From: a virus
Direction: 5' to 3' (one strand)
Virus record (IMG/VR): IMGVR_UViG_3300044825_003330
Coordinates: 1-20,610 of that record
DNA: 20,610 bases
The notes under the pieces: generated by a model
Seen by the model: only the letters and a program-made list of their open reading frames with translations
Databases searched by the model: none
Told to the model about the DNA's origin: nothing
Program-made: the position numbers and the translations under genes
Shown: piece after piece, positions 4,369 through 19,694 of the stretch
Position numbering within the stretch: position 1 is the stretch's first letter
Layout of the letters: each line of letters begins with the position of its first letter

Positions 4369-4383
4369 GAGATATTGTAAGCT

Positions 4384-4511
4384 TTTTTATGGTCGGCAGA
4401 TTTTTTATTATGTGAGGTTTTTGTGAATTTTTTATGGTCGGCGGATTTTTTTCTGGGAAGTGATTCTTATGATTGGTTTTGTGTGATTTTTTTATGGTCG
4501 GCGGATTTTTT
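4384..4511. repeat. Three copies of a TATGGTCGGCGGATTTT unit
   Basis: Near-identical units with the GGTCGGC core at about 4391, 4436 and 4496, each flanked by T-runs on both sides. Copies two and three are 60 nt apart and are separated by the GATTCTTATGATTGG motif, which recurs after copy three. Function unknown. Confidence 0.75.
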
Positions 4512-5125: not shown

Positions 5126-5803
5126 TCAGAGGCCGAACTTTTCACGGCAGATAGGACCGATTCCTGCCGCAATCGAGTCAGGGTTTGTGAGATCACGACC
5201 GCAGCAGCTGCAGCTTCCGGTTTCCTTACCGTAGCGGATTGCAGCGGTGAGAGGATCACTGGCAGCCTCTAAAAGCACCGCTTTAACCTCATCGGCAAGA
5301 CGCGAATCTAAACGGTTAGGTGTAACCTTCCCAAGGTATTTGGGCTGTGGGCCATAATTACCCTCCTCAGTTTCAGTCTGAGAAGTAACCCATAGAGTTG
5401 TAAGATCACGGTTTGGCTTAACATTCACACCACTTAAACGCAGTGTGAGTCGCTTCAATCCGCGAGACTTTGCAGCCTGAAATACACTGAAGAGCCTATT
5501 AAACTGCGGCTCGCTGTTAGCATCCTCTGCAGATTCTGCCTGCAGCAGATCACAGCTCAGCTTGTGAGCCCAGGCCATTTGAGCTGGTGACAGGCCGCGA
5601 TCGTGAGACTGCTGCCACAGGGAAGCGGCAAAGCGCCCGGAGCAATACTGCAGCAGGTCTTGCGCGGCATCATCGCTCAGGCGGCTGGTGAAGCTCACAG
5701 CCTCCCCACGCGCGGTCACAGTGAGGGTTTGAGGGTCGCCCAGGGCGGCATGACGCGAGGCGCGTGCGATTGCGGCGGAACGGTCGGCGGTGGCGGTTTG
5801 CAT
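5126..5803 (-). CDS. DUF6011-type zinc-motif protein, 225 aa
   Basis: The last 30 residues, SCSCCGRDLTNPDSIAAGIG followed by PICREKFGL, match the DUF6011 pattern CxxCxRxLxxPxSxxxGxGPxC, a probable small zinc site seen in phage and actinobacterial proteins of unknown role. The first 170 residues are Ala/Arg-rich with an apparent beta-sandwich-like middle (LKRLTLRLSGVNVKPNRD) that I cannot assign. Base composition is clearly richer in G+C than the late genes, with many GCC/GCG codons, suggesting a different origin or recent gain from a GC-rich source. Upstream lies structured RNA element G, which here points the same way as the gene and so could form part of its leader. Confidence 0.8.
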   Translation of the reverse strand: MQTATADRSAAIARASRHAALGDPQTLTVTARGEAVSFTSRLSDDAAQDLLQYCSGRFAASLWQQSHDRGLSPAQMAWAHKLSCDLLQAESAEDANSEPQFNRLFSVFQAAKSRGLKRLTLRLSGVNVKPNRDLTTLWVTSQTETEEGNYGPQPKYLGKVTPNRLDSRLADEVKAVLLEAASDPLTAAIRYGKETGSCSCCGRDLTNPDSIAAGIGPICREKFGL

Positions 5804-5900
5804 GGCTCGATTGCATTGGCTCCGCCAATCTAGAACCTAGGAAGGCGACACCGTGCCTCAGATCACGAAACCGTCACAATCCGTCACACTTTTATTTCAT

Positions 5901-5969
5901 GGCAGGGTTAGCGTGGCTCACTTTCGTCGCTGGGCTTCGGACCCTCTGCCGGTTTCACCTATCCTACCA
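5901..5969 (-). ncRNA. Promoter-linked structured RNA element, copy G (opposite orientation to A-F)
   Basis: Read on the minus strand: TGG-TAGGAT (extended -10), 16 nt, hairpin GGGT-CCGAA-GCCC, then the conserved tail with GAGCCACGCTAACCCTGCC. The wobble U-G pair in the stem would be a C-A mismatch on the other strand, so this strand is the likely RNA. Unlike copies A-F it reads toward the following gene (5803). It lacks the ATG found in the tail of other copies. Confidence 0.65.
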
Positions 5970-5975
5970 TGCCAA

Positions 5976-5996
5976 GGGCGGCATCGGTGGCCGCCC
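5976..5996 (-). terminator. GC-rich hairpin after the 53-aa gene
   Basis: GGGCGGC-7 nt-GCCGCCC, a perfect 7-bp stem 16 nt after the stop at 6013. No long T-tract follows, so it is a possible rather than a certain terminator. Confidence 0.5.
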
Positions 5997-6012
5997 TGAC
6001 ATAAAACTTTAA

Positions 6013-6174
6013 CTATTCTTTTTCTGCGAAAGTTTCGACTTTTGCATCATAAGATCCCAAAGAATTGTAGAATTCGATCATTCTTTTAGCCTCTGAAATT
6101 GACTTGAATTCTTGATGCTTTCTCTCGCCATTAAAGCGAGGGTAAGGTGCAAAGAAAGAGATGCGGATTGTCAT
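6013..6174 (-). CDS. Small hypothetical protein, 53 aa
   Basis: MTIRISFFAPYPRFNGERKH at the start, then KSISEAKRMIEFYNSLGSYD, ending in an acidic tail. The layout (short beta, then one helix, then a charged end) suggests a tiny alpha/beta fold. The ATG is in the context GGTTCTCATG with GAGG 6 nt upstream, and it lies 7 nt after the stop of the 66-aa gene, so the two are probably an operon. Function not recognised. Confidence 0.72.
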   Translation of the reverse strand: MTIRISFFAPYPRFNGERKHQEFKSISEAKRMIEFYNSLGSYDAKVETFAEKE

Positions 6175-6181
6175 GAGAACC

Positions 6182-6382
6182 TCAGGAGGATTGTAGGTAG
6201 TTGGTGATAGCCTGTAGCATTTTGATTGCTACATTTAGATCCAGCAATTCTAGAGGATCGTTACAATCAGCTTGCAGATCTTGGAAGTATTCTAGATCTA
6301 TGGCGATTGATTGCAGCTGATCACCTACACTCACACCTAGAACAGGTTGGTGATAAGTAAGCACAGATTCAGACCTTTGCAT
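6182..6382 (-). CDS. Small hypothetical protein, 66 aa
   Basis: An acidic helical protein (GDQLQSIAIDLEYFQDLQAD, then LELLDLNVAIKMLQAITNYL). No domain recognised. The start at 6382 lies in TTTCTCATG without a Shine-Dalgarno sequence. It is followed closely by the 53-aa gene, and lies 58 nt after the stop of the 115-aa gene, so all three may share a transcript. Confidence 0.65.
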   Translation of the reverse strand: MQRSESVLTYHQPVLGVSVGDQLQSIAIDLEYFQDLQADCNDPLELLDLNVAIKMLQAITNYLQSS

Positions 6383-6440
6383 GAGAAAGAATAGCGAATG
6401 AATGTGGGGATGTTATACTCTATCCCCAGAGAGTTTGCGA

Positions 6441-6788
6441 TCAGGAGAGAATCATTCCCTCTGTAAATTCTTTCTCCACGAACACCGGAACGGTGCCAGC
6501 TTGCCCCACAAATTTGTGCACAAACCACTCACCTTTGCGCTGAAAGACACACTCACCAGCGATTCCATGCTCTGCCAGAATAGCATTCAGGCGGCTTTTC
6601 GTTGTGGTTGTTTTATAACCACAGCTGTAGAGTTCGACAAAATTATCACCAACCGTAGCGATGTGGTGGCCATAAAGGTGAACATAGGACGCCTTTCTTT
6701 CAGGCGAATATATCACCTTTGTATTGTCTTTCTGCCAATCCTGACACTTCAGAATGGCGTCATTCATGGCGGCTTCGATCTTACGCAT
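6441..6788 (-). CDS. Conserved hypothetical protein, 115 aa
   Basis: The pattern NTKVIYSPERKASYVHLYGH, HIATVGDNFVELYSCGY and TTTTKSRLNAILAEHG, then VFQRKGEWFVH, matches a family of short phage and bacterial proteins I have seen with the signature N-x-x-V-x-Y, IAxxxDxF, TxTTxSRLNA, and an aromatic end. No biochemical role is known to me. The start at 6788 is used here, but Met8 (6767) is a possible alternative that would give a start more like some family members. The gene follows element A and a GTGCCAGT palindrome. Confidence 0.75.
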   Translation of the reverse strand: MRKIEAAMNDAILKCQDWQKDNTKVIYSPERKASYVHLYGHHIATVGDNFVELYSCGYKTTTTKSRLNAILAEHGIAGECVFQRKGEWFVHKFVGQAGTVPVFVEKEFTEGMILS

Positions 6789-6848
6789 TGGAGGGATTGC
6801 GATTGCTCCGCCATCCTACAACTCAGATCCACAGCCGCCATAGCCAAC

Positions 6849-6872
6849 TTGTGCCAGTGATCAAACCGGCTG
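6849..6872. promoter_or_regulatory. GTGCCAGT palindrome, copy 2
   Basis: CTTGTGCCAGT, 8 nt, then CCGGCT. On the minus strand it reads ACTGGCACAAG, the well-conserved half of the family, 63 nt before the 6788 start. Confidence 0.5.
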
Positions 6873-6908
6873 AATTTGCCGGATCGGCTCGCGGATCGGC
6901 TGCCGGTC

Positions 6909-6980
6909 TGCTAGACTAAGATCACAAACGAGGCGAGGCTAAGAAGGCCGATGACGAACAGTAAGCCACGCTCACCCTGC
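6909..6980 (+). ncRNA. Promoter-linked structured RNA element, copy A
   Basis: TGC-TAGACT (extended -10), 19 nt, hairpin GGCT-AAGAA-GGCC, then GATGACGAACAGTAAGCC and CACGCTCACCCTGC. The stem differs from the GAGC/GCTC of other copies by paired changes, with a U-G wobble only on this strand. The transcript would run into the GGATC hairpin at 7011-7028. It points against the neighbouring genes. Confidence 0.65.
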
Positions 6981-7010
6981 GAAAAAATAGTTAAGTATAA
7001 AGAATAAAAA

Positions 7011-7028
7011 AAGGATCATAAGATCCTT
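7011..7028 (-). terminator. GGATC-class hairpin after the 59-aa gene's upstream element
   Basis: AAGGATC-ATAA-GATCCTT, preceded on the plus strand by a run of A, so on the minus strand a T-tract follows. It lies 9 nt after the stop at 7037 and should end that gene; it may also stop the plus-strand RNA from element A. Confidence 0.8.
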
Positions 7029-7036
7029 GTTATTTC

Positions 7037-7216
7037 TTATGCCCAAACTTTTGTGATAATCTTAAAATCTTTCCTAGATTGTTCGTAGATATAAACAACT
7101 CGACCGTTCAGTTCTGCACTCCAATCCAAGGCAGCATAGTGAGCATCTGCCAGATCAATGTACCATTGGGAATCTTTGCGGACAAACTCATCACCAGAGG
7201 GAAGAACAGCGAACAT
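7037..7216 (-). CDS. Small hypothetical protein, 59 aa
   Basis: Minus-strand ORF of 59 codons: MFAVLPSGDEFVRKDSQWYI, then DLADAHYAALDWSAELNGRV and ending with an alpha/beta tail to KVWA. Just under 60 codons, so short-ORF filters would miss it. It ends 9 nt before a strong terminator and begins after a palindrome, the same layout as its neighbours. GGAA lies about 9 nt before the ATG as a weak ribosome binding site. The frame stays open upstream to about 7273, but holds no better start. The pattern of a short beta protein with WYID and VVYIYEQSRKDFKI is like small phage proteins that process other proteins' residues, but I do not assign it. Confidence 0.72.
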   Translation of the reverse strand: MFAVLPSGDEFVRKDSQWYIDLADAHYAALDWSAELNGRVVYIYEQSRKDFKIITKVWA

Positions 7217-7279
7217 CGGATCAGTTCCGAACGACTCCCATACAGTAACAGCTGGACTCGCTGCTGTCTATGGGGTCTT

Positions 7280-7300
7280 GTGCCAGTGGTTGAACTGGCT
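7280..7300. promoter_or_regulatory. GTGCCAGT palindrome, copy 3
   Basis: GTGCCAGT, then GGTTGA, then ACTGGCT; the inner GCCAGT/ACTGGC arms match exactly. It lies 64 nt upstream of the 7216 start. Confidence 0.55.
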
Positions 7301-7337
7301 GGCTGTGGCCGCCAATGGTGGCGCTGGGTCAATTCTG

Positions 7338-7411
7338 TGGTAGACTATGGTCACAAGAGAAGACGAGGCCACGAAGGCCGATGACGATAAGTAAGCCACG
7401 CTAACCCTGCC
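7338..7411 (+). ncRNA. Promoter-linked structured RNA element, copy B
   Basis: TGG-TAGACT, 20 nt, hairpin GGCC-ACGAA-GGCC, then GATGACGATAAGTAAGCC and ACGCTAACCCTGCC. Both arms of the stem differ from the GAGC/GCTC copies while still pairing, which is covariation. Followed by an A-rich tract with repeated ACGAAAA. Confidence 0.68.
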
Positions 7412-7485
7412 ATAAAATACTCAAGAAAAAAACGAAAAACGAAAAGAAAAAAACGATTTTTTAATTTTTATTTCAAATTGTAGGG

Positions 7486-7512
7486 GGGCTGGTGATACCT
7501 ACACACCAGCCC
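7486..7512 (-). terminator. Terminator of the 72-aa gene (GTGATAC class)
   Basis: GGGCTGGTG, 9-nt loop containing ATACC, CACCAGCCC: a perfect 9-bp stem 11 nt after the stop. A T-rich stretch with TTTTTCG repeats follows on the minus strand. Confidence 0.75.
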
Positions 7513-7523
7513 ATAAGACTCAA

Positions 7524-7742
7524 TTAGGCACCAAACATTTCGAGAAAGAGATCACCGAGTTGTGGTTCTTCACGCTTAGGTAGTGGGGAAGCGTAGCATA
7601 CACCGACTGCGCGAGCGTAGTCCCAGATCTCAATAGTGCCGATGCCGATCACTGTACCATCCTTTGAGACCTCATTGCACACGGTACGGTAGGGAGTGCC
7701 TTTGACCCACTTGCGGTTGGGATCAGGGATAATGGCAGCCAT
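7524..7742 (-). CDS. Hypothetical protein, 72 aa
   Basis: MAAIIPDPNRKWVKGTPYRT at the start, then a beta-rich middle (VCNEVSKDGTVIGIGTIEIW) and an acidic end, PQLGDLFLEMFGA. No family recognised. A TATAAT -10 box (7767-7772) lies 24 nt upstream on the same strand, and a terminator lies just after the stop, so this is likely a one-gene transcript. The ATG has CCCC before it (ACACCCCATGG), a start context shared with the genes at 8783 and 9223. Confidence 0.72.
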   Translation of the reverse strand: MAAIIPDPNRKWVKGTPYRTVCNEVSKDGTVIGIGTIEIWDYARAVGVCYASPLPKREEPQLGDLFLEMFGA

Positions 7743-7766
7743 GGGGTGTCTTGCGTTGACTCCGTA

Positions 7767-7772
7767 ATTATA
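7767..7772 (-). promoter_or_regulatory. Sigma-70 -10 box TATAAT
   Basis: GCGC-TATAAT on the minus strand, 24 nt upstream of the 7742 ATG. No clear TTGACA lies 16-18 nt further upstream. The leader GGAGTC after the box is shared with the leaders of the 8783 and 9223 genes. Confidence 0.55.
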
Positions 7773-7815
7773 GCGCCTTGTGGGGGCTTCTGGGGGCTTC
7801 TCATGAGATCCTGCA

Positions 7816-7837
7816 CCGGTTCACCAGCTGGCACAAG
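7816..7837. promoter_or_regulatory. GTGCCAGC palindrome, copy 4 (inverted orientation)
   Basis: CGGTTCACCAGCTGGCACAA on the plus strand, the reverse of the usual direction relative to the next gene. It overlaps the upstream part of the 7742 promoter region. Confidence 0.45.
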
Positions 7838-7876
7838 GAAATGAAAGAAAACGAAAAAACGAAAAAAATACGAAAA

Positions 7877-7900
7877 AAAGGAGAGAAAAATCTCTCCTTT
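7877..7900 (-). terminator. Strong terminator of the four-gene operon 8783-7926
   Basis: AAAGGAGAGA-AAAA-TCTCTCCTTT, a perfect 10-bp stem with a T-tract on the minus strand. Between the last stop and the hairpin lies GTATCACAGTATCACAGG, a motif also found near other gene ends here. Confidence 0.9.
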
Positions 7901-7925
7901 CTGTGGGCCTGTGATACTGTGATAC

Positions 7926-8051
7926 CTATTCTTTTACCTGTTCAAATGTAACGATAATTTCCTTGTCTTCGTTGATGTATTCAGTTTGAATCACAGTCGG
8001 TGAGATTTGCATCTGACCGATCATGTAGGCAGCAGCGAGTAGTTCAATCAT
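7926..8051 (-). CDS. Small hypothetical protein, 41 aa
   Basis: MIELLAAAYMIGQMQISPTV at the start, then IQTEYINEDKEIIVTFEQVK. A helix followed by a short beta region. It overlaps the 45-aa gene upstream as ATGA and lies before the strong terminator, so it is the last gene of a four-gene operon. Support comes from the exact overlap, the position before the terminator and its protein-like composition. Function not recognised. Confidence 0.7.
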   Translation of the reverse strand: MIELLAAAYMIGQMQISPTVIQTEYINEDKEIIVTFEQVKE

Positions 8052-8185
8052 CGGAGAATGCGGTGGCGAATGTCCATAAAGCTCTGTACTTCATGAGCTT
8101 TGAAATACCAAATGTGTTTGTTGGTATCTTGAAAGGTCCAGTAGAGTTCTTTAGTTCTGATGTCAAATGTTTGAACAATTTCCAT
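8048..8185 (-). CDS. Small hypothetical protein, 45 aa
   Basis: MEIVQTFDIRTKELYWTFQD, then TNKHIWYFKAHEVQSFMDIR and a basic end. A beta-hairpin and helix layout, with several aromatic residues. It overlaps the genes on both sides (TGATG with the 42-aa gene, ATGA with the 41-aa gene), so its translation is likely coupled to theirs. No family recognised. Confidence 0.72.
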   Translation of the reverse strand: MEIVQTFDIRTKELYWTFQDTNKHIWYFKAHEVQSFMDIRHRILR

Positions 8186-8313
8186 CAGCAAGACTCCGTA
8201 ACTCTACAAATGAGTTCTGCTGCTTTTGTATCAGCAGATTTGGCTGCTTTGATAGATGCAACCACACTATTGCCAAAGATCACAATAGCGAAGACAAAGA
8301 TGAAGATTCGCAT
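8185..8313 (-). CDS. Small single-pass membrane or secreted protein, 42 aa
   Basis: The first 20 residues (MRIFIFVFAIVIFGNSVVAS) are a signal-anchor or signal peptide; VVAS followed by IKAA could be a signal peptidase site. The remaining 20 residues are short, with two Cys (LICRVTESC). Such tiny exported proteins in phage accessory regions sometimes act on the host envelope, but that is inference. It overlaps the genes on both sides (TGATG at both ends). Confidence 0.72.
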   Translation of the reverse strand: MRIFIFVFAIVIFGNSVVASIKAAKSADTKAAELICRVTESC

Positions 8314-8783
8314 CAGAACAGACCTTCCTTCACGAGACGATCATAAAGAACAGCAGCAAGTGCACCACAATGGGGGCAAGCTTTTGCGTATTTGATGTCA
8401 GACTTCAGGCTGTACTTTTGGGGAGTATTGTGATGCTTGCTGTAGATGAATTTGTAACGATGAACAGCTGAAATAAGAATGAGAAGTTCACGCTTCTGAA
8501 GATCTCCATCAGCAAGCTTATAGATGGGAATAAAGAAGCGATAGTCTTTGATCTCTTTGCAGCGATTCAGACGATCAACAATAGTTTTAGCGCCAGCTCC
8601 GCCGAAGTAAGGTGTCAGCTCCACCATCAGGAAAGCGGAGAAAGGCGCAAGAGCGTTGCTAGTGGCTGTTGTGGGCTGTTGTGCCTGTTGAGCCTGAAGC
8701 AGTGCCAGAGCCTCTTGCAGCGTGGTCAGGGACTCTGCTACAGTGGCGAGTTGGGCGGTGATCTGCTGGAGGTCGGTGTTCAT
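8313..8783 (-). CDS. Paralog of the 18788-19420 protein, 156 aa
   Basis: The N-terminal 45 residues form a likely coiled coil (MNTDLQQITAQLATVAESLT...) followed by a Gln/Thr/Ala linker. From about residue 60 the protein aligns with the product of 18788-19420: VDRLNRCKEIKDYRFFIPIY, a second helix pair, and the end SDIKYAKACPHCGALAAVLY. The shared signature is RLNxCxxIxDxxxxxxxYxL and KYAxACPxCGxLA. One CPxCG pair alone could hold half of a zinc site, perhaps as a dimer. First gene of a four-gene operon ending at 7877. Function unknown. Confidence 0.78.
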   Translation of the reverse strand: MNTDLQQITAQLATVAESLTTLQEALALLQAQQAQQPTTATSNALAPFSAFLMVELTPYFGGAGAKTIVDRLNRCKEIKDYRFFIPIYKLADGDLQKRELLILISAVHRYKFIYSKHHNTPQKYSLKSDIKYAKACPHCGALAAVLYDRLVKEGLF

Positions 8784-8847
8784 TGGGGGTGATTCCCTTC
8801 GACTCCTTAAAGATACCAGCCACAGAAGCCAGCGGTCTATGGGTCTT

Positions 8848-8868
8848 GTGCCACTCCTAGAACTGTCC
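8848..8868. promoter_or_regulatory. GTGCCACT palindrome, copy 5
   Basis: GTGCCACT, 6 nt, ACTGTCC. It lies 65 nt before the 8783 start, the same distance as copy 3 to its gene. Confidence 0.5.
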
Positions 8869-8905
8869 CAATTTGGTCAGCATCCGTCCCATTGGCCCCA
8901 TGACC

Positions 8906-8980
8906 TGCTAGACTATTAGCAACAAGAGAAGAAGAGAGCCCGAAGCTCGATGACGATAAGTAAGCCACGCTAACCCTGCC
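8906..8980 (+). ncRNA. Promoter-linked structured RNA element, copy C
   Basis: TGC-TAGACT, 21 nt, hairpin GAGC-CCGAA-GCTC, then GATGACGATAAGTAAGCC and ACGCTAACCCTGCC. A plus-strand RNA from here would end at the GGATC hairpin 9008-9027, giving roughly 105 nt. It points toward the 3' end of the gene at 9056-9223. Confidence 0.68.
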
Positions 8981-9007
8981 ATGAAATAGTTAAGTATAAA
9001 GAATAAA

Positions 9008-9027
9008 AAAGGATCTTATGATCCTTT
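9008..9027 (-). terminator. GGATC-class bidirectional hairpin
   Basis: AAAGGATC-TTAT-GATCCTTT, with A-run before and T-run after, 28 nt after the stop at 9056. It can serve the minus-strand gene and the plus-strand RNA of element C. Confidence 0.85.
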
Positions 9028-9055
9028 GTATTAGTATATCTTATGTTAAGAATTA

Positions 9056-9223
9056 TCAAATAAAATCACATAAGAGGCGAATCTTTCTGCGAATAGTATC
9101 AGCATCGTCATGACTCCACACATTATCGTCATAAGCATTTTCGATCATCATGTAGATCATCAGCCACTGCTCTTCAGTGAACAGCTGACGGTAGACGGTC
9201 TTGGAGAGTGAATCGACGGCCAT
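9056..9223 (-). CDS. Small hypothetical protein, 55 aa
   Basis: MAVDSLSKTVYRQLFTEEQW, then LMIYMMIENAYDDNVWSHDD and ADTIRRKIRLLCDFI. An all-helical small acidic protein. A one-gene transcript between element D upstream and the GGATC terminator downstream. The leader has GGAGTCGAAAGGGATTC before CCACCCATGG, nearly the same as that of the 8783 gene, which supports both starts. No family recognised. Confidence 0.75.
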   Translation of the reverse strand: MAVDSLSKTVYRQLFTEEQWLMIYMMIENAYDDNVWSHDDADTIRRKIRLLCDFI

Positions 9224-9285
9224 GGGTGGAATCCCTTTCGACTCCTATAGTCTCTCATGCTGTGCCGACCAGATCCAGCCGCCTT

Positions 9286-9306
9286 GTGCCAGTAATTAAG
9301 TGGCAC
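9286..9306. promoter_or_regulatory. GTGCCAGT palindrome, copy 6 (best match)
   Basis: GTGCCAGT-AATTA-AGTGGCAC, a nearly perfect inverted repeat (one mismatch in eight) with a 5-nt spacer, 63 nt before the 9223 start. This copy best defines the family. Confidence 0.65.
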
Positions 9307-9335
9307 ACCTTATGGTCGTTCTGGATCTTATGGCA

Positions 9336-9408
9336 TGGTAGACTGTATTCAACAACCAAGGGAGAGCAAGAAGCTCAATGACGATCAGTAAGCCACAGTC
9401 ACCCTGCC
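9336..9408 (+). ncRNA. Promoter-linked structured RNA element, copy D
   Basis: TGG-TAGACT, 19 nt, hairpin GAGC-AAGAA-GCTC, then AATGACGATCAGTAAGCC and ACAGTCACCCTGCC. The tail has two changes from consensus. An A-rich tract with ACGAAAA repeats follows. Confidence 0.66.
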
Positions 9409-9467
9409 AAAAAATACGAAAAACGAAATTAAAACGAAAAAAAACGAAAAAAATATAAAAATCTTGT

Positions 9468-9494
9468 GGGAGCCTGTGATACTGTCAGACTCCC
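9468..9494 (-). terminator. Terminator of the 121-aa gene (GTGATAC class)
   Basis: GGGAGCCTG, loop TGATACTGT, CAGACTCCC, with one C-A mismatch, 10 nt after the stop. A T-rich tract with TTTTTTCG repeats follows on the minus strand. Confidence 0.7.
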
Positions 9495-9504
9495 AGCAAT
9501 ACTA

Positions 9505-9870
9505 TCAACCTAGGTAAAAATCATCACGATGACCATACATTAAAGTGTGCCACTGTTCATCAGTTTCAACCTCAACTTCACGATGTTGTTCATTGAGATT
9601 CACTTCATAACGACCACCACCTTCACCTGAATCTACTGCCTCATGATAAGGTGCATTATGTTCACGATACACATGATCCACTGCGATCTTGTAGGCTTTA
9701 TCTACTGCATCAGCCCACACATAAAACCTATCAGTTTCGATTGTATTCTCTTGAATGTTAAAGACTTTCCAGGTTTGGAAGCAATAACGAAATGCAGTGT
9801 TTTCTTTATACCTAAAAGTATCCGTACCGATTAACTCGATACCACCGAGACCAAGATACTGTTCAGTCAT
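9505..9870 (-). CDS. Hypothetical protein, 121 aa
   Basis: The start used is the ATG at 9870 (MTEQYLGLGGIELIGTDTFR); an in-frame TTG at 9894 is less likely, since the ATG sits in TTCTTCTCATG, the same context as the 10985 gene. The middle has beta strands with aromatic residues (FRYCFQTWKVFNIQENTIET), then a helix (RFYVWADAVDKAYKIAVDHV), and an acidic, His-rich end with GEGGG. Function not recognised. A terminator follows the stop. Upstream is a 12-bp hairpin (9902-9933) and a palindrome copy. Confidence 0.74.
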   Translation of the reverse strand: MTEQYLGLGGIELIGTDTFRYKENTAFRYCFQTWKVFNIQENTIETDRFYVWADAVDKAYKIAVDHVYREHNAPYHEAVDSGEGGGRYEVNLNEQHREVEVETDEQWHTLMYGHRDDFYLG

Positions 9871-9901
9871 GAGAAGAAAACGGTTTTTGAACAATTCAAA
9901 T

Positions 9902-9933
9902 CTACAGGAGATTCCACAAGAAATCCCCTGCAG
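9902..9933 (-). terminator. 12-bp hairpin between two accessory genes
   Basis: CTGCAGGGGATT, 8-nt loop, AATCTCCTGTAG on the minus strand, all twelve pairs formed (two G-U). It follows the stop at 9941 by about 8 nt and precedes the 9870 start by 32 nt. No strong T-tract follows, so it could act as a partial terminator or as a leader structure. A similar ACAGGA...TCCTGT stem precedes the 10985 gene. Confidence 0.6.
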
Positions 9934-9955
9934 GAGCCAGTTAAACGAGTGTCAC
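9934..9955. promoter_or_regulatory. GTGCCAGT palindrome, copy 7, overlapping a stop codon
   Basis: GAGCCAGT, 6 nt, AGTGTCAC. The TAA stop of the 139-aa gene (9941-9943) lies inside the site (minus strand GTTTAACTGGCTC). Confidence 0.55.
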
Positions 9956-10360
9956 AGTCTTCTCATAAGTTTGCAGAATCTCATCAAGATCAACAACCTT
10001 ACCCATCTTACTGTATAGTGAGAAGTCAATGTCTACACCGGAACGACTATCAATCGTTGCAGACTTGACCTTCACATAATCAGATTTCATCACAGGAATG
10101 AACTGATCAATCAGCCAATCCCACACTTCACTGTTAGAATTATACTCTTCAGTATCAACTTCGATGAGAATGTTTCCACCAGACTCACGAACATAAGAAC
10201 TAAAATCTACATCGACTTTCCCACCAGCTTCACCATACTCTTCAAAGATGAAGTTCTCTTCCTTAACACAACGCTCAGAGATTGCATCAAGATAGGATTG
10301 AAGATTGAAACCCTCACAGACAGTAAGAGTAGCAGTGGCAACGAATTGAGTGTAGGACAT
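9941..10360 (-). CDS. Hypothetical protein, 139 aa
   Basis: MSYTQFVATATLTVCEGFNL at the start, then alternating helix and beta with much Asp/Glu, for example GGKVDVDFSSYVRESGGNIL and YVKVKSATIDSRSGVDIDFS. Acidic; no domain recognised. Its composition is close to the neighbouring 121-aa and 129-aa genes, so the three may be one gained group. Its stop lies within a palindrome copy. Element E and another palindrome copy lie upstream. Confidence 0.74.
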   Translation of the reverse strand: MSYTQFVATATLTVCEGFNLQSYLDAISERCVKEENFIFEEYGEAGGKVDVDFSSYVRESGGNILIEVDTEEYNSNSEVWDWLIDQFIPVMKSDYVKVKSATIDSRSGVDIDFSLYSKMGKVVDLDEILQTYEKTVTLV

Positions 10361-10421
10361 TGGTTCAGGTGGTGAACGAGATCAGTATGGCATGAGATCT
10401 TATGGGAATTCACTCATCACT

Positions 10422-10444
10422 GTGCCACTGATTTAAGTGTCCAC
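10422..10444. promoter_or_regulatory. GTGCCACT palindrome, copy 8
   Basis: GTGCCACT, 6 nt, AGTGTCCAC, 62 nt before the 10360 start. Confidence 0.5.
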
Positions 10445-10472
10445 TCATCACCCCATAAGACCCTGGATGCCC

Positions 10473-10540
10473 TATAGTTGTATCAACAACAGGGGGAGAG
10501 CAAGAAGCTCGATGACGAACAGTAAGCCACGCTAACCCTG
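10473..10540 (+). ncRNA. Promoter-linked structured RNA element, copy E
   Basis: TATAGT -10 box (no TGn extension), 19 nt, hairpin GAGC-AAGAA-GCTC, then GATGACGAACAGTAAGCC and ACGCTAACCCTG. The GGATC hairpin at 10571-10588 follows. Confidence 0.66.
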
Positions 10541-10570
10541 TCACAAAATAATAAAGTATAAACAATAAAA

Positions 10571-10588
10571 AAGGATCTTTCGATCCTT
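10571..10588 (-). terminator. GGATC-class hairpin after the 129-aa gene
   Basis: AAGGATC-TTTC-GATCCTT with a T-tract on the minus strand, 7 nt after the stop at 10596. Same class and same position as 7011-7028 and 9008-9027. Confidence 0.82.
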
Positions 10589-10595
10589 ATGATTA

Positions 10596-10985
10596 TTATT
10601 GTGCGTAAAGATACCCACCGCTCCAGTTTGCCCTACGATAACATTGCTCGCGTGAAACTGCATCTAACAAATTGTAACGAATACCTTTGGCAGGTGATTT
10701 CCATGATGCAGACTTGTAAACATCACCAGTTTGTTTATCTACAAAACAATGTACACTTCGTGAACCATTTGCAATCATAATCACCTTATAGTATTTCTTA
10801 CCTTCTTCAATTACAAATTCATAACCAAAATCATAAGTACCATCTGCAATCTCTTGCAGACAACGATTATGATAATCCATGTTAATCTCTCGTCTTACAG
10901 ACTCTCTATGGCTTCTCGTTGAATACAGACGAAAGTCGGTCTCCAGTGCTTCGCAGAGAGAACGAACATAACCAAGAACTTGCAT
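10596..10985 (-). CDS. Hypothetical protein, 129 aa
   Basis: The start chosen is the ATG at 10985 (MQVLGYVRSLCEALETDFRL); an in-frame ATG at 11009 exists, but the 10985 codon sits in CGTTTTTTTCTCATG, the same context as the 9870 gene. The N-terminal half is helical and basic (YSTRSHRESVRREINMDYHN). The second half looks like a beta domain: YEFVIEEGKKYYKVIMIANG, SVHCFVDKQTGDVYKSASWK and SPAKGIRYNLLD, ending GGYLYAQ. The pattern CFVDKxTGDVYKxASWKxPAKGxRYNL recalls a phage protein family of unknown function that I have seen in cyanophage and other phages. Followed by the GGATC terminator. Confidence 0.78.
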   Translation of the reverse strand: MQVLGYVRSLCEALETDFRLYSTRSHRESVRREINMDYHNRCLQEIADGTYDFGYEFVIEEGKKYYKVIMIANGSRSVHCFVDKQTGDVYKSASWKSPAKGIRYNLLDAVSREQCYRRANWSGGYLYAQ

Positions 10986-11048
10986 GAGAAAAAAACGAAA
11001 TCTCAACATTCAAAATATACAGGAAAAAATCTCAAAAAAATCTCCTGT

Positions 11049-11070
11049 GAGCCAGTTAAACAAGTGGCAC
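11049..11070. promoter_or_regulatory. GTGCCAGT palindrome, copy 9
   Basis: GAGCCAGT, 6 nt, AGTGGCAC, 64 nt before the 10985 start. Nearly the same sequence as copy 7 (GTTTAACTGGCTC on the minus strand), but without a stop codon role here. Confidence 0.55.
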
Positions 11071-11097
11071 ACCATCCTGTCATACCGTCTCATGTCT

Positions 11098-11171
11098 TGC
11101 TATTCTTATGTCATAAGAGAAGAGACAGAGCCCGAAGCTCGATGACGAACAGTAAGCCACGCTAACCCTGC
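11098..11171 (+). ncRNA. Promoter-linked structured RNA element, copy F
   Basis: TGC-TATTCT, 21 nt, hairpin GAGC-CCGAA-GCTC, then GATGACGAACAGTAAGCC and ACGCTAACCCTGC. No GGATC hairpin follows; instead the region leads to the consensus promoter at 11372. Confidence 0.66.
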
Positions 11172-11371
11172 TCTGAAATAATTGTTACAATGTGCGACTC
11201 ATAAGCAATACTCATAAAACTCGAATTACTCATAAGAATCTGATATATTTGATGTTCTTATGATTGGGGGTGGGCGTGATTGGATTTTGTGATATTTGGG
11301 ATTCTTATGAGTCGGTGTGGGTCTTATGAGTCTTATGGGGGTGTGTCAGTAATTTTTCCGTCCGCGCCCCC

Positions 11372-11400
11372 TTGACAAAAACGCGAGCGCGTGCTATAAT
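11372..11400 (+). promoter_or_regulatory. Full-consensus sigma-70 promoter with extended -10
   Basis: TTGACA (11372-11377), exactly 17 nt, TGC-TATAAT (TATAAT 11395-11400). All twelve hexamer bases match the consensus. It reads rightward into the tandem repeats and has no plus-strand gene downstream, so its product is likely non-coding or it serves replication. Confidence 0.9.
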
Positions 11401-11418: not shown

Positions 11419-11660
11419 AGGCATAAGACGGTTAAAATTAACATAAGAACCTAAAAATATCATAAGAATTCACAAGAAACTAGAGGCATAAGACGGTTAA
11501 AATTAACATAAGAACCCAAAAATATCATAAGAATTCACAAGAAACTAGAGGCATAAGACGGTTAAAATTAACATAAGAACCCAAAAATATCATAAGAATT
11601 CACAAGAAACTAGAGGCATAAGACGGTTAAAATATCATAAGAATTCATAAGAATAAGACA
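11419..11660. repeat. 65-bp tandem repeats, three full copies and a partial one
   Basis: Units start at 11419, 11484 and 11549, each beginning AGGCATAAGACGGTTAAAAT and ending CACAAGAAACTAG; they differ by a single C/T. A fourth, partial unit begins at 11614 and lacks the middle part. Each unit holds three CATAAGA or similar words. The copies are contiguous with no unique spacers. Confidence 0.95.
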
Positions 11661-12185: not shown

Positions 12186-12716
12186 TTAGAGTTTTATATA
12201 CTTACTTATGAGATATTCAATGTAGCTATCTGATGCATCAGAAAGATCTGTTTCTGGAACTTCTGTATAGTGACCGAATTTTGCTAACTTTCTTCCTGCT
12301 TTATCATTATCACAGACTGCTATAATTGGACGATTGAGCATAAGAAGAAAGTTCATATAATCTCTTGGTGGATCATTTGCCATGGTTGCTAATGCAGAGA
12401 AATTAAGACTTGTCATTCGAGCTGCATCGAATATACCTTCCGTAAGAAAGATTGGTTTGTGTGGTGAGTATAAGCTTTCTATTCCAAATAAGGTTACTGT
12501 AGGATATGACTTGTTTCTGTAGGTGTAGTATTTCGACTGTTCCTTTGTATTGAAGATTGTTTTTGAACCATGTGGTCTGTATTGCTGATAACCTGCTAGT
12601 TTTCCGGTTAGAGTGTATAAAAGAAAAGTGGCGGTGTTTGTTTCTTCATCAATGATCGTTGGATGTAGATCTGTGTTAAGATGCCTTTGTTTGAGATGGG
12701 ATCTGATGTTCATCAT
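12186..12716 (-). CDS. Toprim-domain protein, primase-like, 176 aa
   Basis: The second half is a Toprim domain: HKPIFLTEGIFDAARMTSLN (catalytic Glu in TEG, then FDAxxxxxxxFxALATMA), and RPIIAVCDNDKAGRKLAKFG, the DxD motif with AG. The C-terminal ETDLSDASDSYIEYLI is like the end of phage Toprim proteins that act as primase-like or nicking partners. The N-terminal part contains a beta-rich region with KLAGYQQYRPHGSKT and no zinc ribbon, so a full primase is not seen. I use the ATG at 12716, which overlaps the upstream stop as TGATG; a TTG at 12722 is also in frame. Confidence 0.85.
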   Translation of the reverse strand: MMNIRSHLKQRHLNTDLHPTIIDEETNTATFLLYTLTGKLAGYQQYRPHGSKTIFNTKEQSKYYTYRNKSYPTVTLFGIESLYSPHKPIFLTEGIFDAARMTSLNFSALATMANDPPRDYMNFLLMLNRPIIAVCDNDKAGRKLAKFGHYTEVPETDLSDASDSYIEYLISKYIKL

Positions 12717-12997
12717 CACCAATGCATACCTTCTTCATAATTATAATATCTCATCAGATACATACGACACATGAGTTCTGTTACATTTGGATTTTGTGTT
12801 ACATCATAAACAACAGAAAAACAATTATCTTCTAATAACAAAGAGAATAAGACTTTTTCTGGGGTATTTGGATTCATTGCAACTGCACAACGAATCCCAT
12901 CATTTTTATCCTTTGCCAATTCAGATAAAATTTCTGCTGATGTGTTTGGATTCTTTGCAATATTAATTTTTTCTTCGACAGTAAGAAATTCATCCAT
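12716..12997 (-). CDS. LRV-type repeat protein, 93 aa (third of three paralogs)
   Basis: Two to three copies of an about 24-residue repeat: KNPNTSAEILSELAKDKNDG, then IRCAVAMNPNTPEKVLFSLL and a divergent third copy. The pattern (N/D)PNTxxExLxxLAxDxxxxVRxxVA matches the leucine-rich repeat variant (LRV) family, alpha solenoids that bind proteins or nucleic acids. Start at ATG 12997 by the TGATG overlap; the TTG at 13000 is not needed. Ends LMRYYNYEEGMHW. Target unknown. Confidence 0.83.
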   Translation of the reverse strand: MDEFLTVEEKINIAKNPNTSAEILSELAKDKNDGIRCAVAMNPNTPEKVLFSLLLEDNCFSVVYDVTQNPNVTELMCRMYLMRYYNYEEGMHW

Positions 12998-13311
12998 CAA
13001 TCATTCATCAGATGTAAACGACGAGCAAGTTCTGGGGCGTTTTTGTTGTTTGCTGCTCCACAACGAACATCCCACTTTTCATCAGAAATCAATTTAATCA
13101 ATGTCTCTGGTGGCGTATTTGGATTCCATGAGACTTTCATCCGAACATAATCATCAATATCAGATGCAAGTAATTTTAGAGTTTCTGATGATGTATTCTC
13201 ATGTCTTGCAACACGATCACGAATATAAGAATTCTCATGAGTCGCCAGAACTGCTAGAGTTTCTGATGATGTATCTGGATTCCTCGCAAGATTAAAAGGA
13301 GTTTCAGTCAT
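12997..13311 (-). CDS. LRV-type repeat protein, 104 aa (second paralog)
   Basis: Four repeats of the same unit: ARNPDTSSETLAVLATHENS, RHENTSSETLKLLASDIDDY, WNPNTPPETLIKLISDEKWD and a last partial NNKNAPELARRLHLMND. The consensus is the same as in the neighbours on both sides, and the C-terminal (A/C)RRLxLM is shared by all three. Eight-base overlap with the upstream gene (ATGACTGA) and TGATG with the downstream one. Confidence 0.87.
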   Translation of the reverse strand: MTETPFNLARNPDTSSETLAVLATHENSYIRDRVARHENTSSETLKLLASDIDDYVRMKVSWNPNTPPETLIKLISDEKWDVRCGAANNKNAPELARRLHLMND

Positions 13312-13642
13312 TTTTCATTAATAATAAACGACGCATAATTTCGGTTGTGTTTGGATTTTGTGCCGCAAATCTACGAACAAAATCATCATTATCCTCAAAG
13401 AACTGCTCTAACAATTCCTTTGGGATATTTCCATTTCTTGCAACATGACAACGAACATAAGAATCCTTATCCTCCGCAAGAACTTTTAGAGTTTCCTGTG
13501 ATGTGTTTGGATGATCCGCAACAGCACCACGAATCAAAATACTTTTGTCAGTTGCAAGAACTACTAGAGTTTCTGATGGTGTACTTGGATCTTGGATGAT
13601 TTTGAGTTTTTCATCATAAGAAAGTTCAAGAATGTTGTTCAT
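13304..13642 (-). CDS. LRV-type repeat protein, 112 aa (first paralog)
   Basis: Repeats IIQDPSTPSETLVVLATDKS, ADHPNTSQETLKVLAEDKDS, ARNGNIPKELLEQFFEDNDD and AQNPNTTEIMRRLLLMKND. A typical LRV solenoid fragment; full proteins of this type in bacteria have more repeats, so these three genes may work as a stacked or mixed complex. The order and overlaps point to tandem duplication within one operon. Confidence 0.87.
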   Translation of the reverse strand: MNNILELSYDEKLKIIQDPSTPSETLVVLATDKSILIRGAVADHPNTSQETLKVLAEDKDSYVRCHVARNGNIPKELLEQFFEDNDDFVRRFAAQNPNTTEIMRRLLLMKND

Positions 13643-19425: not shown

Positions 19426-19614
19426 TCAGAGAGACACGATCCAGTTAAGATCTGAATTGAGGTCTACCCAGAAAAAGTATTTTCTGTTCTTAGAGGCAAG
19501 AAAGACTTTACCATCTTTCTGCTGCTCGACAAAACAGGTTACATTCCGATCCATAAGATTTGCAAGGCGATTCTTGGCTTTGCTCGATTTGGGAGTGACG
19601 ATGGCGGTTTGCAT
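19426..19614 (-). CDS. Small conserved hypothetical protein, 62 aa
   Basis: MQTAIVTPKSSKAKNRLANL, then MDRNVTCFVEQQKDGKVFLA and SKNRKYFFWVDLNSDLNWIV. The pattern KAxNRLAN...VEQxxxGxVFLxSxNxxYxFWVxLxxDxNW matches a short family that I recall from cyanophages and marine cyanobacteria; no role known. Its TAA stop lies in CTTAACTGG, a piece of the palindrome family. A palindrome copy lies 60 nt upstream. Confidence 0.78.
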   Translation of the reverse strand: MQTAIVTPKSSKAKNRLANLMDRNVTCFVEQQKDGKVFLASKNRKYFFWVDLNSDLNWIVSL

Positions 19615-19670
19615 TGGCCTGTTGTCGATGAACTTAGTATAACCGGTGGAGCTGGACTGCGGTCTGGGTC

Positions 19671-19692
19671 TTGTGCCAGTTACCTATCTGTC
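19671..19692. promoter_or_regulatory. GTGCCAGT palindrome, copy 10
   Basis: TTGTGCCAGT, 7 nt, CTGTCC, 59 nt before the 19614 start. It lies outside the accessory region of 4369-11824, so the family is not limited to it. Confidence 0.5.
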
Positions 19693-19694
19693 CC

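Follow-up and report, generated by a model that had tools for sequence, protein, structure and literature searches.

What does a cyanophage gain from a short promoter-linked hairpin that is repeated seven times in one region and mostly reads against the neighbouring genes? This question is raised by a viral stretch of 20,610 nt (IMG/VR virus record IMGVR_UViG_3300044825_003330, positions 1 to 20,610; here called the window). GPW_gp25, DUF7717 and a homologue of Kyanoviridae Gp96 are among its genes, and the source is therefore a T4-like cyanophage. Open reading frames (ORFs) are our own calls for all records other than Synechococcus phage B23. A first-pass annotation had interpreted the repeats as phage small RNAs whose hairpin covaries and belongs to the promoter strand. 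The sequence supports this view, and the hairpin is retained in diverged copies from phage B23 and five further contigs. Our favoured reading, to which we give a probability of roughly 0.57, is a multi-copy noncoding RNA that would be co-regulated and co-expressed with accessory genes and would act in trans in a dosage-type manner.

The hairpin and the strand of the RNA

A search of the window with the tail pattern GTRAGCCACGCTNACCCTG (at most three mismatches) gave exactly seven sites, six on the plus and one on the minus strand, at the places where the first-pass annotation had put them, compared to 0.00 matches in 100 dinucleotide shuffles. A repeat search of the window recovered the same copies as repeat families D2–D4. 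We aligned 62 distinct copies from IMG/VR contigs (alignment A1, clade A), and the covariance model R1 based on this alignment scores the seven window copies at 72–104 bits.

In the 62 copies the 4-bp stem is paired in 248/248 cells, 55 of which are double-changed. Pairing no better than random had been named beforehand as the outcome that would speak against the element. We found 100% paired cells versus 81.8% in shuffles and a covariation score of 0.647 versus 0.336, and none of 500 shuffles scored as high. Clade A stems are GAGC/GCTC, GGCT/GGCC, GGGT/GCCC, GGCC/GGCT, GGCC/GGCC and GGGC/GCCC; the window stems, including the U.G pairs of copies A and G, match the earlier description. RNAalifold recovers the same 4-bp stem unaided and supports no larger conserved structure in the clade A alignment.

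The stem is also kept in clades B and C, which comprise phage B23 and the five further contigs. Checked copy by copy, 20/20 copies have a perfect stem of at least 4 bp with new sequences (GCGC/GCGT, ACGC/GCGT, GCGG/CCGC, AGAGC/GCTCT, AGAGG/CCTCT, AGAGCC/GGCTTT, AGAGGT/ACCTTT), compared to 2.3 of 20 in shuffles, and it ends 27–29 nt before the end of CCTGC. RNAalifold detected no helix in a MAFFT alignment of clades B and C, because unequal loop lengths cause misalignment. Wobble pairs are always G.U and never A.C on the promoter strand (26 versus 0 in clade A, 8 versus 0 in clades B and C), and the promoter strand is therefore the RNA strand. Additional pairing is restricted to subsets: the 5′ end can pair with CCCUGCC in some copies only (E, G), and a CAGG/CCTG tail hairpin is found in part of clades B and C only. 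The loop differs by genome (permutation p 0.026), with CCGAA in 10/12 copies of contig L060 and ACGAA in 7/12 copies of L067.

Within the window, copy A spans 6908–6991 (+), with the −10 box TAGACT at 6912–6917, stem arms GGCT (6937–6940) and GGCC (6946–6949), the loop AAGAA and a tail from 6961. Copy B (7337–7421, +) has TAGACT at 7341–7346, GGCC (7367–7370) and GGCC (7376–7379) around ACGAA, and a tail from 7391. The stem GAGC/GCTC is shared by the next four copies, all on the plus strand: copy C (8905–8990; TAGACT 8909–8914; arms 8936–8939 and 8945–8948; loop CCGAA; tail from 8960), copy D (9335–9418; TAGACT 9339–9344; arms 9364–9367 and 9373–9376; loop AAGAA; tail from 9388), copy E (10469–10552; TATAGT 10473–10478; arms 10498–10501 and 10507–10510; loop AAGAA; tail from 10522) and copy F (11097–11182; TATTCT 11101–11106; arms 11128–11131 and 11137–11140; loop CCGAA; tail from 11152). 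Copy G (5891–5970) is on the minus strand, with TAGGAT at 5966–5961, GGGT/GCCC and the loop CCGAA at 5944–5932, and a tail from 5921 downwards. The tail reported as conserved is present in all copies without being identical: copy D has CACAGTCACCC, and the tail ends are CCTGCG in A, CCTGTC in E, CCTGCT in F and GTGAGCC in G. The TG extension of the −10 box, described as usual, occurs in 45 of the 62 aligned copies, in which the gap between −10 box and stem is mostly 19–21 nt.

Outside the stem the RNA is predicted to be single-stranded; its 5′ end is rich in purines or CAA, and the common core of the tail is CAC..CCTGC. The promoters have an extended −10 box and no evident −35 box, a combination that would fit activation, and transcription from them is likely. 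Terminator-like sites on the element strand were found after 28/60 copies, compared to 1.8 in shuffles, giving a predicted RNA of about 103 nt; the remaining 32/60 failed our strict terminator test. After copy A, such a hairpin (7011–7028, +) is usable on both strands and is the predicted 3′ end of both RNA A and the gene 7037–7216. Similar hairpins follow copy C (9008–9027, strand unassigned, between the element and the gene 9056–9223) and copy E (10571–10588, both strands). In agreement with the earlier statement that no known RNA family fits, no Rfam 15 match reached the gathering score; the window contains no tRNA or tmRNA, and between 5850 and 11250 only chance Rfam matches, up to E 5, were obtained.

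An array of cassettes with a presumably shared control region

Copies A–F oppose the genes on both sides, as the first-pass annotation had stated, while copy G is co-oriented with its neighbours. Transcription against the genes, as it had been put, is a prediction, and the predicted RNAs are not antisense to gene bodies. Their ends lie between genes, so that each diverges from one gene and converges with its next neighbour. Copies opposing both neighbours make up 77/92 in clade A (a count that includes near-identical contigs) and 26/26 in clades B and C, or 103/118 altogether. In clade A the distance from the element to the start of the divergent gene clusters at 108–123 bp, and the stop codon of the convergent gene is mostly 43–66 bp away. 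The exception to this back-to-back layout is copy G, which lies at the array boundary and reads towards the DUF6011 gene (5126–5803, −). Boundary copies orthologous to G are present in several contigs. Orthologous flanks (families F8, F4, F1, F2, F9, F6) mark one conserved locus, and between them the content and order of the cassettes vary among related contigs, a plastic region with gene shuffling of the kind known from PeSL (promoter early stem-loop) elements of T4-type phages.

The region between element and divergent gene contains the dyad GTGCCAGT-N-ACTGGC in 40/65 control regions, compared to 1.2 in shuffles. Its centre is 49–52 bp from the gene leader GGAGTC in 20/21 measurable cases. 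The distance from the −10 box of the element is 39–44 bp for 28 copies and 51 bp for ten; for the other two it is 31 and 46 bp. The two main spacings differ by about one turn of DNA, so that a regulator at the dyad would face both promoters, which suggests that one regulator serves both.

Each of copies A–F has such a dyad between itself and the divergent gene on the minus strand. For copy A and the gene 6441–6788, which encodes a Kyanoviridae Gp96-like protein (PF23790), the dyad is GTGCCAGTGATCAAACCGGC (6851–6870), with its centre 51 bp from the −10 box. The same distance was found for GTGCCAGTGGTTGAACTGGC (7280–7299), between copy B and the small ORF 7037–7216 that is convergent with copy A, and for GTGCCACTCCTAGAACTGTC (8848–8867), between copy C and the gene 8313–8783, which has no family match above the curated cut-off. 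The spacing is 43.5 bp for GTGCCAGTAATTAAGTGGCAC (9286–9306; copy D and the small ORF 9056–9223), 41 bp for GTGCCACTGATTTAAGTGTCC (10422–10442; copy E and the gene 9941–10360, without family match) and 42 bp for GAGCCAGTTAAACAAGTGGCAC (11049–11070; copy F and the DUF7717 gene 10596–11009, PF24835).

A copy of the GTGCCAGT dyad region also occurs outside the array, at 19665–19694, upstream of the small gene 19426–19614 and with no adjoining RNA element; the presumed regulator may thus serve more genes. The mRNA leader GGAGTCG(T/A)(C/A)AGGGATTCC..CCCATG recurs in 23/65 control regions, e.g., around 8783, 9223 and 7216, and has a pyrimidine-rich stretch instead of a Shine-Dalgarno sequence directly before the start codon. 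A box resembling HLR1/RpaB sites, noticed by eye, was present in just 1/65 control regions and was dismissed. We also considered an integron-like or attC-type array and rejected it: the tyrosine recombinase PF00589 is absent from the 10 records searched, the complete B23 genome and nine records that may be fragments.

Some other features of the window are recorded here. A sigma-70 promoter with perfect consensus (11372–11400, +; TTGACA, 17 nt, TATAAT with TG) borders the array on the right and points into three near-identical 65-nt direct repeats (99%) and a partial fourth (11419–11653) with no evident ORF, possibly another noncoding transcript. Three tandem paralogous genes (12716–13642, −; family F3) contain short repeats like NPNTSxETLxxLA that resemble variant leucine-rich repeats, and F3 genes also adjoin arrays in other contigs. 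An AT-rich repeat of 34 nt that contains TTTATGGTCGGC (family D11) is present in three imperfect copies at 4373–4511. The heptamer CATAAGA/TCTTATG occurs 50 times in the window versus 4.7 expected from a second-order model.

Relatives and known systems

The 20-mer of the tail was found in 14 viral-contig stretches, with up to ten exact copies each. Whole contigs searched with R1, whose E-values are rough, carry 2–12 copies, always in a single region; the largest arrays have 11–12. The copies are confined to one array near the baseplate genes: every copy falls within 3.6–8.7 kb on a 100-kb contig and below 4.5 kb on a 133-kb contig.

Building a covariance model and searching phage genomes with it, as the first-pass annotation had proposed, led to the diverged relatives. 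In the complete genome of phage B23 there were seven matches (E 4e-5 to 0.04). They share one strand at 112.7–119.2 kb, lie between opposite-strand genes and are close to gp25. B23 is a subarctic freshwater myovirus with a Synechococcus-Cyanobium host, and the elements go unmentioned in the announcement of its genome (PMC7171214). Four contigs (L092, L102, L104, L105) were reached by a pattern derived from B23, and another pattern added a fifth (L110); R1 confirmed all of them. In B23-type arrays (L089, 4687–6299; L113, 1562–3175) we observed two elements with 6-bp stems, GAAGTA/GATGTA loops and a more divergent tail, which are perhaps a distinct subfamily.

When elements of the three clades were compared by blastn to 50,697 phage records, B23 was the sole convincing match. 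R1 did not find the element in RN05-S, S-SCSM1, DSL-LC02, S-PM2, Sf-CH1b, S-CRM01 or S-SZBM1, and a match in Syn1 (17.8 bits, E 0.2) was set aside as probably due to chance. Derivation from a host was rejected as well: in a genome collection scanned for the exact 20-mer of the tail only, it occurred once, in Streptomyces, which we take as chance.

Several known systems bear a likeness to the element. In PeSL elements an early promoter directs the adjacent downstream gene, and the stem-loop acts as a terminator. PeSLs are the nearest in layout: they are small intergenic repeats that combine an early-type promoter with a stem-loop and lie in the hypervariable regions of T4-like phages, where accessory genes are shuffled around them (Arbiol 2010; Comeau 2014, cited in PMC4503421). 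However, the promoter of our element faces away from the associated gene, and only boundary copy G fits the PeSL arrangement. Moreover, its hairpin, a covarying RNA stem of 4–6 bp, lacks a U-run on the promoter strand and is not a terminator; a long conserved tail, predicted to be transcribed, comes after it, and a separate predicted terminator closes the unit. Only sparse PeSL-like sites are reported from cyanophage S-PM2 (PMC4503421). The CfrI antisense RNA of S-PM2 (PMC12197685, PMC2984593) is likewise a cyanomyovirus noncoding RNA opposite neighbouring genes, but it is described for one place, is about 225 nt long and is antisense to psbA and a homing endonuclease. The manA, wcaG and PhotoRC-II motifs (Weinberg 2010, PMC2864571) are structured RNAs of T4-like cyanophages also found by comparative genomics; they lie in potential 5′ untranslated regions or stand beside photosynthesis genes, and cmscan found no match to them in the window. 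RNA anti-CRISPRs (Racrs), or solitary repeat units (PMC10651486), are small noncoding phage RNAs that mimic CRISPR repeats, whereas stem and loop of our element vary even within one genome, in up to 12 copies. We found no description of the element family in the searched literature, which covered PeSLs through PMC4503421.

A proposed co-regulated RNA acting in trans

The part of the element that is predicted to be transcribed is far better conserved than the control region beside it. Identity within genomes is 0.84 for the RNA body versus 0.61 for the adjacent control region, and between genomes 0.80 versus 0.60. For the diverged contigs L060 and L067 the bodies of orthologous cassettes (0.852, n = 5) are no more alike than those of non-orthologous ones (0.851), and both values are below the identity within genomes (0.879). 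This indicates that the bodies are partly homogenised within genomes, as would be expected if the copies recombine or have a partner in common. In the closer pair L061/L069 orthologous cassettes are more alike (0.937 versus 0.795).

We propose that each copy is a noncoding RNA gene of about 100 nt that is transcribed from an extended −10 promoter of its own and stops at an intrinsic terminator used by the convergent neighbour as well. In this RNA, a purine-rich 5′ end would be followed by a single short hairpin and by the conserved tail (CAC..CCUGC), which would stay single-stranded. Within one variable region of these phages, each accessory operon is paired back-to-back with one such element, the two being separated by some 110 bp of control region, and the dyad present in most cassettes is probably bound by a regulator of both promoters, leading to co-expression of RNA and accessory genes. 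Early in infection, hairpin and tail would bind a common protein or RNA partner of host or phage. With up to 12 near-identical copies per genome the RNA most likely acts by dosage and in trans; we hold the latter to be somewhat more likely than not. The more specific version, an accessory array in which each cassette brings its own copy of a trans-acting RNA under a shared operator and the RNA dose scales with the number of accessory genes, is tentative.

Some of our results weigh against this proposal. The stem is merely 4–6 bp long, isolated RNA bodies (C and B) fold no better than shuffles (z −0.2 to −0.7), and recombination or common descent leaves 13 stem haplotypes, fewer independent events than the 82 copies. 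The dyad is missing from 25/65 control regions, and copy G, for which no terminator was seen, may be a leader. The RNA pairs only weakly with gene leaders (z about −1 to −2), and the analysis yielded no target or partner.

The most serious competitor, although an unlikely one, is an action in cis, by which short divergent transcription and the shared terminator tune or insulate the neighbouring promoter (supercoiling, block of read-through) and the hairpin affects only elongation or termination of its own transcript. One element per operon, the fixed divergent spacing, the shared dyad and the terminator separating each element from the gene that follows would all be in agreement with this, but it leaves unexplained the far higher conservation of the predicted transcript body compared to the control region, and the conservation of hairpin and single-stranded tail in three clades. 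Still less probable is a DNA-level recombination module like PeSL cassettes, with accessory genes shuffled by homologous recombination and an incidental hairpin. The reshuffling of cassettes between related phages at one variable locus and the partial homogenisation of RNA bodies speak for it; stems that change yet stay paired, always with G.U on one strand, point to selection on RNA and not on DNA identity, and in 103/118 cases the promoter faces away from the gene that it would serve.

Antisense pairing with the leaders of cassette mRNAs (GGAGTCG..GGGATTCC..ATG) appears improbable. The mean duplex energy was slightly better than in shuffles in all seven arrays tested, but the effect is small (z mostly −1 to −2), the arrays are not independent, and the leaders differ between cassettes and have no conserved complementary site. 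We can hardly believe in a very short coding gene or minigene (e.g., M-T-N/T/I-S-K-P-R): about half of the clade A copies do carry a 7-codon ORF after the hairpin, but the body of 20/62 lacks any ORF of at least 5 codons, all four bases are seen at the stop codon position (40 A, 11 C, 6 G, 5 T), the frame is broken by length differences of 1 nt, and no such ORF was seen in clades B and C. Coding on either strand was rejected, as start, stop and frame are not conserved, and the element is very probably a noncoding RNA.

Few noncoding RNAs of cyanophages have been described, and most cyanophage accessory genes have no known function. Kyanoviridae-type phages of at least three diverged clades carry the element as a conserved multi-copy RNA gene family, and since B23, which represents one of these clades, is an isolated freshwater phage, the family can be tested at the bench. 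The geometry of putative regulator dyad, phased promoters, RNA and accessory gene provides a testable model for the control of a hypervariable phage region, and the partner of the RNA could reveal a host process that is subverted by the phage.

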